Positions 713-23,361 of a stretch of 25,168 nt of DNA are shown piece after piece. The position numbers were made by a program, and so were the translations under genes. How positions within the stretch are numbered: the first letter of the stretch is position 1; each line of letters starts with the position of its first letter. Source of the stretch: a virus; the IMG/VR virus record IMGVR_UViG_3300020442_001034, positions 1 to 25,168 of that record; one strand, 5' to 3'. Below the pieces are notes generated by a model. It was given only the letters and a program-made list of their open reading frames with translations, ran no database searches and was not told the origin of the DNA.

Positions 713-1606
713 ATGTTTGGTATATCCGCATTTGCTCAATCTCCTTTTGCAGCATTAGGCGGAACTCCTGTAAGTGTAGAAATATCTGGAGTAGTAGCTA
801 CTTCTGCTTTAGGCACCACTACACAGCTAGGCTCAGCAAATATAACCCTGACTGGTTTATCAGGAAACTCTGCCTTATCTGGCGTAGGAGTAAACGGAAA
901 AGCTTTTGCTAACCTTCCTAGCTTAGTATCAACTATAGGCTCTGTAGCTGTAACGACAGATGCCGAAGCAAATGTGACCCTGACAGGTCAATCTATATCG
1001 ACTTCATTAAATACTGTAGGTATTGACGCAGGCGGAGAAATTTCTGTAATCGGATTTAATGTTAGTTCTAATTTATCTAATTTAACTATCTCAGGTAAAT
1101 CAAATACAGACCTAACAGGACAAACTACTTCTTCATCTTTAGGAGCTCTCTCTATAGATGCTGAGGCAAATACTACTCTTACAGGCGAAAGCATAACTAC
1201 TGCTATTAGTTCTGTAGGAGTTAATGGTAAGGCTATAGCTACTTTGCCATCTTTAGTTTCTACAGTGGGCTCAGTATCAGTTTCTACAGATGCAGAAGCT
1301 AATGTATTTTTGACTGGTTTAGCAGTAGTAAATTCTTTAGGCACTATATCCTTAATTACAAATAACAATATATCTGTCTCAGGCTATAGTCTTACAAATA
1401 CATTAGGCACAACAAGCGTAACAGGTAAAGCAAACGTAATCCCAACAACTTTAATAATCAACAGCTCAGTAAGTAATAATTTACTTATTTGGAGTATTTT
1501 AGATGAGGTGCAAAACTCAAACTATAATGAAATTTCAACCACACAAAACTCAAATTACACTGAAATTAATGAAACTCAAAATGCAAATTATGAAGACGTT
1601 GCATGA
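713..1606 (+). CDS. Repeat-built tail structural protein
   Basis: This gene encodes 297 residues, nearly all Ser, Thr, Gly, Ala, Val, Ile and Asn, so a beta-rich extracellular virion protein is likely. From residue 42 to 261 it consists of about ten units of 22 residues with the core A-N-x-x-L-T-G followed by S-L-G-x-x-S-V. Residues 42-151 and 152-261 align as one 110-residue duplication: GVNGKA occurs at 59-64 and again at 169-174. The C-terminus carries three 11-residue repeats of the form xTQNSNYxEI (264-296). Similar repeats appear in the 18501-19307 protein. The protein has no enzymatic motif, and a tail fibre or tail-surface role is inferred from composition and neighbours. Its TGA stop is the TGA of a TGATATAAT promoter. 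Confidence 0.75.
   Translation: MFGISAFAQSPFAALGGTPVSVEISGVVATSALGTTTQLGSANITLTGLSGNSALSGVGVNGKAFANLPSLVSTIGSVAVTTDAEANVTLTGQSISTSLNTVGIDAGGEISVIGFNVSSNLSNLTISGKSNTDLTGQTTSSSLGALSIDAEANTTLTGESITTAISSVGVNGKAIATLPSLVSTVGSVSVSTDAEANVFLTGLAVVNSLGTISLITNNNISVSGYSLTNTLGTTSVTGKANVIPTTLIINSSVSNNLLIWSILDEVQNSNYNEISTTQNSNYTEINETQNANYEDVA
836..1495 (+). repeat. Tandem duplication of a 330-bp block coding 110 residues
   Basis: Two consecutive 330-bp blocks (836-1165 and 1166-1495) encode related 110-residue segments, each made of five 22-residue units. The DNA copies have diverged at many third positions while the protein units stay recognisable. This suggests an old duplication under protein-level selection. 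Confidence 0.65.
1502..1600 (+). repeat. Three 33-bp repeats coding QNSNYxEI units
   Basis: Three adjacent 33-bp units encode DEVQNSNYNEI, STTQNSNYTEI and NETQNANYEDV at the C-terminus of the repeat protein. Similar short aromatic/Asn repeats end other phage surface proteins. The role is not known. Confidence 0.7.
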
Positions 1607-14472: not shown

Positions 14473-14547
14473 AATTTCATTTTTCATTCTCCCAAGAAAT
14501 GTAATTTATAAAATATAGGGCACTCTAATCAGGGTGCCCTTCTTATT
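14473..14547 (+). ncRNA. Candidate small RNA of about 75 nt
   Basis: A transcript starting 7 bases after the TGATATAAT box at 14458 would run about 75 bases and end in a GC-rich hairpin plus TTCTTATT (14517-14547). There is no ORF with a ribosome site in it. The 5' half is unstructured and U/C-rich. Its 3' end touches the stop codon of the opposite-strand helicase, so the hairpin may instead serve as that gene's terminator. The call rests on the promoter/terminator pair only. Confidence 0.35.
14517..14547. terminator. Probable bidirectional terminator between convergent units
   Basis: AGGGCAC (14517-14523) pairs with GTGCCCT (14534-14540) around a 10-base loop. On the + strand it is followed by TTCTTATT; on the - strand by ATATTTTATAAATT. 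It lies just past the stop of the - strand helicase gene and probably ends that transcript, as well as + strand read-through. Confidence 0.6.
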
Positions 14548-16465
14548 CATAAAGACTGTTATAGCCCTCACCATCAAGCTCTTCTATTTGTCTTTTGTAT
14601 TTCTTAAGCATTTTGTAGGCAATCTTTTGTTGAGCCATACTCCAGCTATTTTGTCTGGCTAGAGAAGCACCGAAGTCTTTATCAACACCATTAAAGCCAA
14701 CACCATCTTGTGCTAAAGCACCATCACATCTTGAAGAAAGAAACTTCATGAATTTTTGAAGCAACTCTACTTTTTCTAATGATAAAGACTCAGCTATTTG
14801 ATTGGCTTTGGCTTTTACTCTAGCTTTTTTGATTACCTTGTTAAGCTCTTTGTTTTCTTCGATAAGCTCTGGTATCTCGATTTTTTTCTCAACCACTACA
14901 TCATCAAGAGCTCTAGCAGCTACTTTAGTTTTATCGACAATCTTTTTGGCAAACACTGCATCAAGTGAGCCTTCAACAACAATGTACTGAATAAGAACAG
15001 AAGATTCTTGACCAATTCTGTGTATTCTATCTTCTGCTTGGGCAATATCAGAAGGCACCCAATCAAGCTCTGCAAACACCATTTTAGATGCTCTAGTCAA
15101 AGTAAGACCAACACCAGCAGCTTTGATACTGCCAATGAAGACATCAGCTTGACCGCTTTGAAAAGCCTCAACAGCTTCGTTTCTTTCTACTTGGTTTTTC
15201 TCACCAGTTAGAACAACAACTTTTTTATCTTGCTTGATTAGCTCTGCTTCAAGCTGGGCAATGACATCTCTGTGGTGAGCCATGACTACCACAGGCTCGT
15301 TGAAAGACTCAAGGTGCTCAGCCACTGCTTTGACTTTCTTCTCAGCAGTAGCTTTTCTTTTTGAAGACATACTTGCAAAGTCTATGCTAGTAGAAAATTG
15401 GTCAGCATCCAGACTATAAGGGTCTACGTTAGGATTTTTATTTTTGTTGTTGTAGTCTTCGAAAGCAGAATATTCTGCTTTGATTTCTTTTTTATAAGAC
15501 TCGTAAGGGAGCTCAATAATCTGTTTTACTTTGGCTGGCAAGTCTTTAAGAACCTCATCTTTTTTTCTTCTAATCATGAAGCTTTGTCTAAGTCTTCTTT
15601 GCAACTCATCTAGGTTTGAAGCTCCACTCCAATCCCAAACGCTTTTATTTCTAGCGACTTGTTTTTTGTGAAGACTGGCATATCTTTTTCCAAAACCAAA
15701 TCTATTACCAAATGATTTATCGTCTAAGTAACCAGCAACAGCCTGTATTTCAATAGGTCTGTTAGGTATTGGAGTACCAGTCAGCATGATTTTTTTGTCA
15801 GCTTGCACGCTTAAAGCTGCTTTAGTTCTTTGAGCATCAGGATTTTTAAGATAGTGAACCTCATCCATAATCACAAGACTCCATTTTTTATCAAGTAATT
15901 CTTGATACTTTTGCAAGACATCGTAATTAATAATTACAATATCTTGCTTTTCATCAAGATTATCTTTGCCTGACATAATGACTTGCACATCTCTTTTATC
16001 AACCAACCAAGTCTCTAACTCTTTTTTCCAATTCAACTTAAGAGATGCTGGTGAAACAATTAGAACATCTTTTGGTTTATTGACATTAATAACACCGATG
16101 GCTTGAACAGTTTTGCCCAAGCCCATCTCATCACCAATCAAGATATTGTCTTTGTCTAAGCAATACTCAATACCAGCTTTTTGATAACCATAGTAATCAA
16201 GACCAGCTGGCACAGGATAATTTTTATCAGAGTCTACAGCTTGTGATTTTTCTAAAATATCTAAATCATCAGAGTATCTTTTGACAATCCAAACATCATC
16301 GTTCTTAGATACAGCATAGCCTGACTTTTTAAGAGCAGTTTTTTGTTCTCTCCAGACAGACCAAAAGAGTTCGCTGTTACTTTTGTTGAGCTCAGCTTCC
16401 TCTACATACCTGCCATCAGGTAGCTTTTGCTTTTGTGACCAATCTAAATCAAAGTTATCCATCAT
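14543..16465 (-). CDS. SNF2-family DNA helicase/translocase
   Basis: This gene encodes 640 residues. The N-terminal 90 residues are an uncharacterised extension. The helicase core shows Walker A GDEMGLGKT (111-119), DEVH (201-204), LTGTPIPN (228-235), GVGLTLTRAS (451-460) and QAEDRIHRIGQ (476-486), all expected for superfamily 2 SNF2 ATPases of the SMARCAL1-like branch. SNF2 proteins translocate on duplex DNA rather than unwinding it processively. A C-terminal extension holds SSRCDGALAQDGVGFNGVDKDFG and a helix ending MLKKYKRQI, a motif I have seen attached to phage and bacterial helicases and nucleases. It starts in an ATGATG overlap with the upstream 80-aa gene. It is one of two - strand genes, placed between capsid and tail genes. 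Replication, repair or anti-defence roles are all possible. Confidence 0.92.
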   Translation of the reverse strand: MMDNFDLDWSQKQKLPDGRYVEEAELNKSNSELFWSVWREQKTALKKSGYAVSKNDDVWIVKRYSDDLDILEKSQAVDSDKNYPVPAGLDYYGYQKAGIEYCLDKDNILIGDEMGLGKTVQAIGVINVNKPKDVLIVSPASLKLNWKKELETWLVDKRDVQVIMSGKDNLDEKQDIVIINYDVLQKYQELLDKKWSLVIMDEVHYLKNPDAQRTKAALSVQADKKIMLTGTPIPNRPIEIQAVAGYLDDKSFGNRFGFGKRYASLHKKQVARNKSVWDWSGASNLDELQRRLRQSFMIRRKKDEVLKDLPAKVKQIIELPYESYKKEIKAEYSAFEDYNNKNKNPNVDPYSLDADQFSTSIDFASMSSKRKATAEKKVKAVAEHLESFNEPVVVMAHHRDVIAQLEAELIKQDKKVVVLTGEKNQVERNEAVEAFQSGQADVFIGSIKAAGVGLTLTRASKMVFAELDWVPSDIAQAEDRIHRIGQESSVLIQYIVVEGSLDAVFAKKIVDKTKVAARALDDVVVEKKIEIPELIEENKELNKVIKKARVKAKANQIAESLSLEKVELLQKFMKFLSSRCDGALAQDGVGFNGVDKDFGASLARQNSWSMAQQKIAYKMLKKYKRQIEELDGEGYNSLYE

Positions 16466-17805: not shown

Positions 17806-18504
17806 TTGGCAGTATCAAATAGTAAAAATTTTGAGCCAGATGTAGCAGAGTTTGTCGAAGAAGCTTTTGAACGCTGTGGCATAGAGTTAAGAACTGGTTA
17901 TGACTTAAAAACAGCCAGAAGAAGTCTTAATTTATTGTTAGCAGAATGGTCAAACAGAGGCTTAAACCAATGGACAGTTGCTGAAAAAACTGTTGCTTTG
18001 GTGCAGGGCACAGCGACTTATACAATAGACTCTACGGATGGCACTGCAACTATTGATGTATTGGATGCTTTTGTTAGAGAAACCACAAATAATGAAAATA
18101 CTGATTTACCCTTAGCAAAAATAAGTAGGTCACAGTATGCTGGTTTATCTAACAAGGGCACCACTGCTAAACCATCACAATATTTCGTTGATAAACAAAT
18201 AACACCAAAAATAACTTTGTACCCAACACCTGATGTATCAAGTACATATACACTGCACATGAATGTTTTAACAAGAATGGATGATGCAGATGCTGGAGCT
18301 GATACTTTAGAAATGCCTTTTAGGTTTTATCCTTGTCTAGCAGCTGGTTTGGCATATTACATTTCTATGAAAAGAGCACCTGAAAGAACTGTTTTGTTAA
18401 AACAAATTTATGAAGAGGAATTTGAAAGAGCTACATCACAAGACCAAGATAGGTCTTCTTACAACATAGCTCCTGATTTACGAAGTTACAATTCAGCTAA
18501 ATGA
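17806..18504 (+). CDS. Head-tail adaptor-like protein
   Basis: This gene encodes 232 residues from a TTG start; the frame has no nearby ATG, and the N-terminal helix (VAEFVEEAFERCGIEL and RTGYDLKTARRSLNLLLAEW) fits a natural start here. This helix pair, the RGLNQWTV strand and later LPLAKISRSQY and PRFY-like MPFRFYPCLAAGLAYYIS match phage connector proteins that I associate with P22 gp4-like or T7 gp11-like adaptors binding under the portal. It begins 2 bases after the preceding stop and overlaps the next gene by 4 bases. Confidence 0.72.
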   Translation: MAVSNSKNFEPDVAEFVEEAFERCGIELRTGYDLKTARRSLNLLLAEWSNRGLNQWTVAEKTVALVQGTATYTIDSTDGTATIDVLDAFVRETTNNENTDLPLAKISRSQYAGLSNKGTTAKPSQYFVDKQITPKITLYPTPDVSSTYTLHMNVLTRMDDADAGADTLEMPFRFYPCLAAGLAYYISMKRAPERTVLLKQIYEEEFERATSQDQDRSSYNIAPDLRSYNSAK

Positions 18505-19307
18505 GTAAATTTGCTAGTAACAAAAATGCCTATGGCATTTGCGATATAACTGGTTTTAGATACAAACTCAAAGAAATGAAAATGACTTGGGATGGCAAGT
18601 TAGTCGGTCCTGACCAATATGATGCAAAACATCCACAATTAGACAGAAGACCTATAGCTCTTGATGCTCAAGCTATAAAAAATGCAAGACCTGACACAAG
18701 TGATGATAATAATTTCTTTTCTGTCTATACAAATGTAGACAAAGGTAAACTAGGTTCTCCAGCAGTTAGTTTCGGAGTGCAATCAGGATTAGGTGATATT
18801 GTAATAAATGAACCAGTAACTAACACAGTTAGTCAAACTTTGTCTTCTTTGTCTGTTGCAAGCTCTTTAGGAACAACATCCTTGACAGGTGTGTCTGCTT
18901 CAGAGACTGTCACTGGTATTGGGATTACAAGCTCTTTATTTCCTCCAACTATCACTACAAACGTCACTTTGTATTCGGTTACAGTAGCTTATGGAACTAA
19001 TTCTTATGGTTCTGGCAATAAATATTTCCTTGATGGTGCATATTATGCAACCATAGACCTTACAGAAGGTAGCACATATAGATTTGACCAATCCGATTCT
19101 AGCAACTCAGGACACCCATTAAGGTTTTCTACAACAGCAAATGGAACTCATGGTGGAGGCTCTGAGTATACTACTGGGGTGACGACTAACGGCACTCCGG
19201 GTAGTGCTGGAGCTTATACACAGATTACAGTAGCTGTAGGAGCACCTACTTTATATTATTATTGCACTAATCACTCAGGCATGGGCGGACAGGCAAATAC
19301 AGTTTAA
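18501..19307 (+). CDS. Virion protein with C-terminal cupredoxin-like domain
   Basis: This gene encodes 268 residues. Residues 1-66 form a conserved phage N-terminus (MSKFASNKNAYGICDITGFR, then GKLVGPDQYDAKHPQLDRRP). Residues 105-150 have the same SLGTTSLTG-type repeats as the 713 protein. Residues 155-268 look like a cupredoxin: DGAYYATIDLTEGSTYRFDQ strand, SNSGHPLRFS with His205, and YYYCTNHSGMGG with Cys255, His258 and Met261. H...C-x2-H-x2-M is the complete type-1 copper ligand set with amicyanin-like spacing, and His205 to Cys255 is near the plastocyanin distance. Copper binding is an inference. The domain is attached to a particle protein, so it would be on or in the virion. It overlaps the adaptor gene by 4 bases. 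Confidence 0.78.
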   Translation: MSKFASNKNAYGICDITGFRYKLKEMKMTWDGKLVGPDQYDAKHPQLDRRPIALDAQAIKNARPDTSDDNNFFSVYTNVDKGKLGSPAVSFGVQSGLGDIVINEPVTNTVSQTLSSLSVASSLGTTSLTGVSASETVTGIGITSSLFPPTITTNVTLYSVTVAYGTNSYGSGNKYFLDGAYYATIDLTEGSTYRFDQSDSSNSGHPLRFSTTANGTHGGGSEYTTGVTTNGTPGSAGAYTQITVAVGAPTLYYYCTNHSGMGGQANTV

Positions 19308-19327: not shown

Positions 19328-19975
19328 ATGAGCTTTACTCTTGGAACTTTAAAAACTGCAATACAAGATTATTTGGAGTCTAGCGAGACAACTTTTGTTA
19401 GTAATCTTGACACTATAATTAAAGGAACTGAAGATAGAATCTTTGAAATTGTACAATTACCGCAACAAAGAAAAAATGTAACTGGTAACTTAACTACAGG
19501 TAATCGTTTTTTAGCTACGCCTTCAGATTTTTATGCTCCTATGAGTTTAGCTATTATTTCAAGTAATGTTTACAGTTATTTGGATTATAAGCATCCTTCT
19601 TTTTTAAAAGAGTATGCACCTAATTCAACATCTACAGGAACTCCAAAGTATTATGCTCTTTTTTCAGACGAGTCATTTACTGTAGCTCCTGTACCAGATG
19701 CAAATTTTACAGTAGAATTGCATTACTTACATAAACCAGCCTCGCTAACGAGTGGAAGTGATAGTGGACAGACAATACTTTCAAAAGATTATCCAGATGC
19801 CTTGCTCATGGGTTGTCTTGTTGAAGGTGCGACTTTTCTTAAAGAATCTCCTGATACTATTGCTTCTTATGAAGCGAGGTTCAAAGAGGCAGTCAGTAGA
19901 ATGAAAAATCTTTCAGAAGGTAGAAAAGTGAAAGATGAGTACAGATACGACTCTTTAAGAATTGGAGTTTCCTAA
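19328..19975 (+). CDS. Adaptor/tail connector protein (SU10 adaptor-like)
   Basis: This gene encodes 215 residues. The N-terminal helical part (LGTLKTAIQDYLESSETTFV, then IIKGTEDRIFEIVQLPQQRK) is followed by LATPSDFYAPMSLAI, the KHPSFLKEYAPNS stretch, TPKYYALFSD with FTVAPVPDANFTVELHYLHKP, and a helical end with ARFKEAVSRMKNLSEGR. This is the pattern of the phage SU10-type adaptor or T7 gp11-type tail tubular A family, which forms the ring between portal and tail nozzle. It lies downstream of the other adaptor-like gene and upstream of the gp10-like gene. No ribosome site is present. It overlaps the next gene by one base. Confidence 0.78.
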   Translation: MSFTLGTLKTAIQDYLESSETTFVSNLDTIIKGTEDRIFEIVQLPQQRKNVTGNLTTGNRFLATPSDFYAPMSLAIISSNVYSYLDYKHPSFLKEYAPNSTSTGTPKYYALFSDESFTVAPVPDANFTVELHYLHKPASLTSGSDSGQTILSKDYPDALLMGCLVEGATFLKESPDTIASYEARFKEAVSRMKNLSEGRKVKDEYRYDSLRIGVS

Positions 19976-21453: not shown

Positions 21454-23361
21454 ATGGCTTTAACTAAATTTAATTTTAAATCTGGTGTAAATAAAGAAGA
21501 AACTAGCCTTTCTAACGAAGGCGGTTGGGTAGACGCTAATTTTGTTAGGTTTAGAAAAAATGCTGTTGAAAAAATAGGTGGTTGGGTAAAAGCCGTCACG
21601 GTAAGTTTTCTAGGAAGGGCTAGAGGCTTAATTACTTGGACAGCTACTGAGGGAACCAGATACTTAGGTCTGGGCACAACTTTAAAATATTATCTCAGAG
21701 AAGGTAATGCTTTTTTTGATATTACTCCTATTAGAGCCACAACTGGAGCAGGAGATGTTACTTTTGCTAGAGTAGCAGAAGGAGACGCAACCATAAATGT
21801 ATCAGAGACTGGACATGGTGCTAACGCTGGTGACTTTGTTACGTTTAGTGGTGCTGTTTCTTTAGGAGGAAACATAACAGCTGATGTTCTTAATCAAAAT
21901 TATCAAATAGCTACAATTACAGATTCAAACACTTTTACTATAGAGGCTAAAGATACTAGCGGTGCAACTGTAACAGCTGCTTCAGGTGACACAGGAAATG
22001 GTGGCTCAAGTGCAGTCGCTGCTTATGAAATTAATGTAGGCACAGACACTTACTTGACTGGCACAGGTTGGAGTGTAGGTGGTTGGGGCGAAGGTACTTT
22101 TGGTAGCACATCACCACTATCAACTAGTAATCAGCTCAGAATATGGACACATGACCATTATGGAGAGGATTTAATTATTAATCCTAGAGCAGGTGGAATT
22201 TACAGATGGGTACAAGATAATGGTCTTAACACAAGGGCTGTAGAACTATCTACTGTTGCTGGTGCAAACTTAGTGCCTACCAAAGGATTGCAAGTAATAA
22301 CTTCCGAGACTGATAGACACTTAATAGTTTTGGGCTCTGACCCAATAAATAACTCAGGCACAGCTAGGACTGGAGCAGTGGACTCTATGTTAATTTCTTT
22401 TTCTGACCAAGAAAATTTATTAGAGTTTGAGCCTAGAGCTACTAATACTGCTGGTTCTTTAAGACTTTCAAGTGGCTCTACTATTGTAGCTGGTACAAAA
22501 ACAAGACAAGAAATAGTTGTTTGGACAGATACAGCTTTGTACAGTATGCAATTTATAGGTCCGCCTTTAACTTTTTCTTTAAATTTAATTAATGAAGGCG
22601 TTGGCTTAATAGGTCCTAAAGCTTTTGCTAATTCACCAAACGGTGTATTTTTTATGAGTGAATCTGGGTTTTATGTCTATCAAGGCTCAGTGCAAAAACT
22701 TCCTTGTAGTTTGCAAAACCATGTTTTTAATGACATAGATGCTTCACAGGCATACAAGTGTCATGCTGGATTAAATGCTGAGTTTGCTGAAGTTTGGTTT
22801 TTCTATCCTTCACTCTCTGAAGGGAGTGGAGAAATATCAAAATACGTTATCTATAATTATGAAGAGCAAACTTGGAGCTTAGGCTCTTTAACAAGACACG
22901 CATGGCTAGACAATTATGCTAATTCAAAACCTATAGCTTCTGGTGTATCTGGTAATGAAAGCTACATTTACGACCATGAATCAGGCTCAAACGATGACAC
23001 GCAAGCCATGTCAAATGTATTTATAGAGTCAGGTGATTTTGATGTGGCAGATGGTGATAACTTTGTGTTTATTAAAAAAATAATACCTGATATACAATTT
23101 TTAAATGATTTAGGAGCCTCACCAAATGGTGCAATCAATTTGGTTTTAAAAGAAAGAAACAGCCCTGCTGGTTCCCTGTCTACAAGCTCTACTTCACAAA
23201 TTACAGCATCTACAGCTAGAAATGATGTGAGAATGAGAGCAAGACAATTTGTTTTGCGTTTCGAGTCTGATGATGATTTGTCACCAGAATCAGATAAAAA
23301 AGATTTTAAATGGAGGCTTGGTAGTACCAGAGTAGATTTACAGCAATCAGGAAGAAGATAG
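21454..23361 (+). CDS. P22 gp10-like tail hub/DNA stabilisation protein
   Basis: This gene encodes 635 residues. Opening MALTKFNFKSGVNKEETSLS, then WVDANFVRFRKNAVEKIGGW, is the family start for proteins that carry genome-stabilising or nozzle functions. The middle (TWTATEGTRYLGLGTTLKYY, then DHYGEDLIINPRAGGIYRW and QEIVVWTDTALYSMQFIGPP) has the repeated strand blocks of a beta-propeller. Two Ser/Thr-rich stretches around 100-195 look like an inserted Ig-like piece, common in tail proteins. The closing DFKWRLGSTRVDLQQSGRR is basic. It would close the portal channel below the adaptors. It follows a structured ribosome site. Confidence 0.82.
   Translation: MALTKFNFKSGVNKEETSLSNEGGWVDANFVRFRKNAVEKIGGWVKAVTVSFLGRARGLITWTATEGTRYLGLGTTLKYYLREGNAFFDITPIRATTGAGDVTFARVAEGDATINVSETGHGANAGDFVTFSGAVSLGGNITADVLNQNYQIATITDSNTFTIEAKDTSGATVTAASGDTGNGGSSAVAAYEINVGTDTYLTGTGWSVGGWGEGTFGSTSPLSTSNQLRIWTHDHYGEDLIINPRAGGIYRWVQDNGLNTRAVELSTVAGANLVPTKGLQVITSETDRHLIVLGSDPINNSGTARTGAVDSMLISFSDQENLLEFEPRATNTAGSLRLSSGSTIVAGTKTRQEIVVWTDTALYSMQFIGPPLTFSLNLINEGVGLIGPKAFANSPNGVFFMSESGFYVYQGSVQKLPCSLQNHVFNDIDASQAYKCHAGLNAEFAEVWFFYPSLSEGSGEISKYVIYNYEEQTWSLGSLTRHAWLDNYANSKPIASGVSGNESYIYDHESGSNDDTQAMSNVFIESGDFDVADGDNFVFIKKIIPDIQFLNDLGASPNGAINLVLKERNSPAGSLSTSSTSQITASTARNDVRMRARQFVLRFESDDDLSPESDKKDFKWRLGSTRVDLQQSGRR

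Follow-up and report, generated by a model that had tools for sequence, protein, structure and literature searches.

The gene at positions 18501..19307 (plus strand) of the window, the whole 25,168-base stretch of an IMG/VR virus record, raises the question of whether a protein of a marine phage particle carries a working blue-copper site and, if so, what such a site would do outside the cell. The gene begins with ATG, encodes 268 amino acids, and is flanked by two adaptor-like genes of the neck/tail region. An earlier note, made from the DNA sequence, had proposed a complete type-1 copper site in the C-terminal part of this protein, fused to a phage structural N-terminus through a repeat linker.

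Architecture of the gene and its surroundings

The window possesses the gene set of a short-tailed phage, including genes for a terminase, a portal, a major head protein, adaptor-like proteins, and a P22 gp10-like stabilization protein. The upstream adaptor-like gene (17806..18504, plus strand) corresponds to phrog_12985, and its homologue in DSL-LC04 is annotated as a Pam1-type adaptor. The downstream gene (19328..19975, plus strand) is a virion structural or adaptor-like gene (phrog_2941 and phrog_10775), and the gene at 21454..23361 (plus strand) was assigned to the P22 gp10-like stabilization or needle-head protein of the short-tailed phage tail by phrog_3287 and by tblastn to annotated stabilization proteins. 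An SNF2-like helicase gene, named from sequence motifs only, is located on the minus strand (14543-16465) amid the plus-strand structural genes.

The full-length model of the 18501 protein consists of three parts, namely a folded N-terminal module, a linker with pLDDT below 50, and a cupredoxin domain. The N-terminal module (residues about 6-50; 18516..18650, plus strand; pLDDT about 72-93) is degenerate and ribbon-like, is common to phage neck-region proteins, and matches phrog_28581 as well as homologues such as HTVC027P gp65, HTVC023P gp55, CRP-902 gp53, and a DSL-LC04 protein. This module resembles a degenerate zinc ribbon; the DSL-LC04 protein has Cys-x2-Cys and a third Cys, and one Cys is left in the window copy. 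The Ser/Thr repeat linker was also recognized correctly in the earlier note: it is a Ser/Thr/Gly/Val-rich repeat region (residues about 54-152; 18660..18956, plus strand) modelled at low confidence, mostly with pLDDT <50. In relatives, the linker is a variable-length run of 'TGVxGTxxxGTVTV' repeats, which in our reading resemble fibre shafts. A likely fibre gene without a PHROG match is present elsewhere in the window (713-1606), and its repeats (e.g. LTNTLGTTSVTGKA) resemble those of the 18501 linker (VASSLGTTSLTGVS).

The C-terminal domain comprises residues 155-268 (18963..19304, plus strand). The predicted ligands, all encoded on the plus strand, are His205 (first copper ligand; codon 19113..19115) within SGHPLRF, and Cys255 (thiolate ligand; 19263..19265), His258 (second His ligand; 19272..19274), and Met261 (axial ligand; 19281..19283) within CTNHSGM. 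The reading frame and the ligand set are thus present as described in the earlier note, and the Cys-x2-His-x2-Met spacing is indeed that of amicyanin. The distance between His205 and Cys255 is 50 residues.

Fold, ancestry, and conservation of the ligand set

Structure prediction by AlphaFold2 on 64 relatives (alignment A1) gave a confident beta-sandwich (mean pLDDT 92.9, pTM 0.85) of the Greek-key cupredoxin type. When the PDB was searched with the domain model by Foldseek, nearly all of the top 50 matches were cupredoxins or cupredoxin-fold proteins (probability up to 1.00), with pseudoazurin, AcoP, rusticyanin, plastocyanin, amicyanin, and multicopper oxidases as the leading matches. The scores are moderate (E-values 0.009-0.03, TM-scores 0.38-0.59, and no PDB match at E 0.001), as is expected because the family is distant and its loops are different. 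In the model, His205 (model residue 58) directly precedes strand 60-63, the place of the N-terminal His ligand in type-1 copper proteins, and Cys255 ends the penultimate strand 104-108, followed by His111 and Met114 (model numbering) in the loop before the last strand 115-120, which corresponds to the Cys-x(2-5)-His-x(2-5)-Met arrangement. In this prediction, the strand order of the ligands is that of a type-1 copper site. The model therefore speaks for the fold suggested in the earlier note, and its topology is consistent with a clustering of the four ligands.

The relationship to known blue copper proteins is distant. When the gene, the domain, and 64 relatives were compared with Pfam and NCBIfam, no model matched the window domain. 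At the curated cut-off of PF00127 (21.2 bits), the window domain gave no hit, and a SAR86 member of the family (L106) reached 17.9 bits; a marine Bacteroidetes protein domain (L239) passes the cut-off with 31.8 bits and scores 25.6-35.2 bits with the profile of the window-domain family. A PDB search with a single domain sequence gave no match, and matches were obtained by profile search alone: with the A1 profile, seven sequences were found at E up to 1; six of them, plastocyanins and one pseudoazurin, align at the Cys/His loop, each match being singly marginal (E 0.15-0.36). Alignment of the family profile by hhalign with nine PF00127 proteins from marine genomes placed His, Cys, and His in register (probability 72%, E 3e-5). 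Because of the PDB profile matches, the PF00127 alignment, and the bridging scores of L239 and L106, common descent of the virion domain with blue copper proteins is likely.

The domain shares with plastocyanin, amicyanin, and pseudoazurin (PF00127) the cupredoxin fold and the His plus Cys-x2-His-x2-Met set at the same topological places, and its loop length equals that of amicyanin. In contrast to these proteins, it resides inside a virion protein without a signal peptide, has His-Pro instead of His-Asn, possesses a longer middle region, and falls under Pfam detection. Asn straight after the first His is usual, although not universal, in plastocyanin, azurin, and amicyanin, whereas this residue is Pro206 in the 18501 protein and Pro in 94% of the ligand-bearing domains. 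Pro also follows the type-1 His in multicopper oxidases (HPxHLHG), and domains of these enzymes (CueO, McoA, and ascorbate oxidase) are among the Foldseek matches. Unlike them, the 18501 domain has no second His set for a trinuclear cluster; it would hold one copper site per domain and would not be an oxidase.

The four ligand positions are identical in all 81 tblastn matches from 80 IMG/VR loci and in 114 of 114 domains, including cellular relatives down to about 39% identity. Alignment A1 (n = 64; 38-83% identity to the window) contains only five invariant columns, namely the four ligands and one Gly. This conservation (114/114 domains and the invariant columns of A1) rules out a chance motif. 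The codons at the ligand positions vary synonymously (CAT 44 and CAC 23, TGC 32 and TGT 35, and CAC 27 and CAT 40 for His, Cys, and His, respectively), and the identity of the ligands is therefore held by selection rather than by recent copying. The median pairwise identity of the ligand-bearing domains is 37%; this group is defined by its ligands, so that invariance within it is no evidence by itself. The search peptide LYYYCTNH likewise presupposes Cys and His, a bias that was countered by tblastn matches in pattern-free phages and by scans from ligand-less domains. For the widened set, distant cyanophage domains were added through tblastn and through scans begun from distant and ligand-less domains. 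All four ligands are present in 68 of the resulting 93 non-redundant and very divergent domains; three or two occur in no domain, four domains have one, and 21 have none, compared with 28, 39, 21, 5, and 0.4 expected under independence. Random loss among homologues, which the earlier note had named as an observation that would speak against it, is thus not what is seen; the absence of intermediate states points to a metal site that behaves as a unit, as in type-1 copper proteins. The ligand-less domains retain residues of the fold, with Gly25, Phe41, Ser56, Gly61, and Gly66 of the domain at 96-100%. On the tree, parsimony gives at least five state changes, only one of which is forced by strongly supported branches; because the losses cluster in few clades and branch support is weak, the number of independent ligand losses is small, and few of them are certain.

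Distribution of the domain and its probable place on the particle

The domain was matched in 356 of 50,697 phage records, which belong to Synechococcus, Prochlorococcus, Pelagibacter, and Methylophilales phages or further marine viruses, all of them marine, and in at least 600 places in IMG/VR. No relative was found in the plasmid sequences searched. Cultured carriers are the cyanophages S-TIM5 and P-SSM2 and the pelagiphages EXVC032P Baldr and HTVC028P. A copper domain on a particle had been considered unusual; its virion association holds, but its supposed rarity does not, since the domain is widespread in marine phages.

The domain matches the virion families phrog_30742, 693, 677, and 708 (tail fibre or baseplate decoration; E 2e-23 to 4e-8), and its PHROG matches comprise tail fibre, baseplate wedge, and other virion-protein families. 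In T4-like cyanophages, it is found in gp7 and at the end of gp9; it is also found in a pelagiphage tail fibre and in a T7-type tail fibre. In 76 of 119 domain-bearing ORFs (the window and 75 others), the domain is joined to the neck-region N-terminal module, nearly always as the C-terminal tip. In phage 023Pt_psg01, it is instead located at the N-terminus of the adaptor gene (the homologue of 17806..18504), and the adjoining 18501 homologue is without it. HTVC027P, HTVC023P, CRP-902, and DSL-LC04 possess the N-terminal module without the cupredoxin domain. These moves from gene to gene and the optional presence in relatives indicate an optional, movable, and probably exposed module. Judging from gene family and position, its location on the virus particle is very likely.

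Several cupredoxin-like domains per chain are found in gp7-like baseplate proteins of cyanophages (L122:478-3351, L123:2801-5287, and L124:391-3303), where one domain has the full ligand set and the others have none. In another gp7-like cyanophage protein (ORF L136|145|2733), the third cupredoxin domain (L136:1774-2124, residues 544-660) keeps the His, Cys, His, and Met residues (HCHM). This domain and Prochlorococcus DUF4214 proteins (L112/L114) share 'HPYFGQGSxKGYxIxG', which suggests domain exchange between the cyanophage baseplate and secreted proteins of the host.

The relatives in cells are envelope or secreted proteins, lipoproteins among them. Those of SAR86, SAR92, and Pseudomonadales contain cadherin-like or PEBP parts, those of marine archaea contain collagen-like repeats, and those of Prochlorococcus contain DUF4214. 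For example, a SAR92 lipoprotein (L107:5326-6309) is a fusion of a PEBP (phosphatidylethanolamine-binding) domain and a cupredoxin domain, and marine euryarchaeal lipoproteins (L102, L103, and L105) have long collagen-like Gly-X-Y repeats with the cupredoxin at the end, resembling a stalk with a copper tip. Some matches in cellular genomes are phage genes: L081-L084 contain genes resembling 18501, and Pelagibacteraceae contigs contain a T7-type tail fibre.

Possible function and relation to known systems

It is highly probable that the metal site of the 18501 C-terminal domain is real and binds metal, and the metal is most likely copper. From the residues, the predicted fold, the plastocyanin-type homology, the unit-wise behaviour of the ligands, the association with virion genes, and the mobility of the domain, all of which were computed, we infer copper as the metal, the anchoring role of the N-terminus, exposure, and host contact. 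In the proposed mechanism, the 18501 protein would be a small component of the neck region of the particle, with the N-terminal module probably serving as the anchor and the repeat linker leading to the cupredoxin, which forms the free end. One copper ion most likely occupies the type-1 site (His, Cys, His, Met) and would need to be loaded inside the cell or in seawater, and the domain would be an exposed, swappable module passed among virion genes by marine phages. Because the domain passes between neck, baseplate, and fibre proteins, frequently forms the tip, and has counterparts in cell-surface proteins, it most likely contacts something outside the particle; as the metal site is kept as a unit, the metal should be important in this contact. 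The job of the domain would most likely be contact with the host envelope, in which the copper face may bind a surface ligand or copper may be presented to an uptake or redox system. Given a metal-binding site and a location on the particle, host contact has an even chance or slightly better. Taken as a whole, the reading in which the domain is a cupredoxin whose intact type-1 site most likely binds a single copper ion, and in which it serves as a swappable, exposed virion module in host contact, is modestly favoured.

A different use of a real site is also conceivable. Copper or zinc may lock the loop between the last two strands and stabilize the exposed domain in seawater, with the binding surface elsewhere. 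Such a structural site would suit a domain carried by many different virion proteins, and the ligand-less paralogues, which keep the core of the fold, indicate that the fold can serve without metal. However, the same paralogues manage without metal, so that metal is not needed for folding, and every domain with Cys also has the axial Met (68/68), which favours copper over zinc; a structural role is unlikely, although it deserves weight. Mere reuse of the fold for binding, another option raised in the earlier note, fits the ligand-less paralogues but is unlikely for the 18501 copy. That no metal is bound, and that the four residues are conserved as, for example, a covalent cross-link or a folding motif, is very improbable: the singly marginal PDB matches would be compatible with this explanation, but four residues across 57 positions are kept or lost together and fall on cupredoxin ligand positions in both the fold and the profile alignments.

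Two further possibilities assign copper a more specific task. By analogy with the iron Trojan-horse hypothesis for HxH fibres (PMC11705849), a copper-loaded tip could mimic a copper chaperone or metallophore and be bound or taken up by a copper receptor of the host. The hosts of the carriers are open-ocean bacteria, and homologous domains occur on bacterial and archaeal lipoproteins, but no receptor is known, and the neighbourhood of the SAR86 lipoprotein gene L111 contains dehydrogenase, acyl-CoA, and hydrolase genes and no copper genes; copper delivery is improbable. Slightly less probable again is a redox role, in which Cu(I)/Cu(II) switching would sense a redox surface of the host or detoxify superoxide near the particle. 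The amicyanin-like spacing of an electron-transfer-type site and the fold matches to electron-transfer cupredoxins are consistent with it, whereas the 18501 protein is devoid of a partner redox domain and the particle resides in seawater without an evident electron donor. Host contact through an exposed copper-site module remains our preferred reading, although none of the observations points to it specifically.

Ig-like and other exchangeable domains occur on phage structural proteins. Like Ig-like modules, the 18501 module is a beta-sandwich shuffled among fibre, baseplate, and neck proteins, but it differs in its conserved metal site. Cyanophage plastocyanin (petE), a photosynthesis-related auxiliary metabolic gene (PMC3037559), is likewise a phage-encoded cupredoxin; in contrast, the 18501 domain is joined to virion proteins and represents a family of its own. 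A soluble plastocyanin of the petE type was ruled out for the window gene, since its product is a fusion with a virion protein and the family profile gives Prochlorococcus plastocyanin only 5.6 bits. The iron-binding HxH tail fibres of phage T4 (gp37) and Alteromonas phage R22Y (PMC11705849) likewise place a metal site on an adsorption structure, in the latter case of a marine phage; compared with these fibre-trimer sites, the 18501 domain has a single-domain His/Cys/His/Met site, and fold, metal, and ligands differ. A literature search, in which subscription journals were thinly covered, found no description of cupredoxin or plastocyanin-like domains in phage virions. Cupredoxins and phage petE (PMC3037559) are already known, and iron on fibres has been proposed (PMC11705849); a virion-borne family of copper-site domains appears to be new in the literature covered.

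It is possible, if still somewhat doubtful, that marine phage particles display working blue-copper sites, with free virions forming a copper-binding pool in seawater and copper being used in host recognition or entry. This reading is directly testable, since cultured carriers exist and the ligand-less paralogues provide natural controls. Viruses of the most abundant ocean microbes (Synechococcus, Prochlorococcus, SAR11, and others) commonly carry the domain; if the reading is true, copper would join iron as a metal carried by phages outside the cell, and the finding would touch both phage adsorption and the trace-metal chemistry of seawater.
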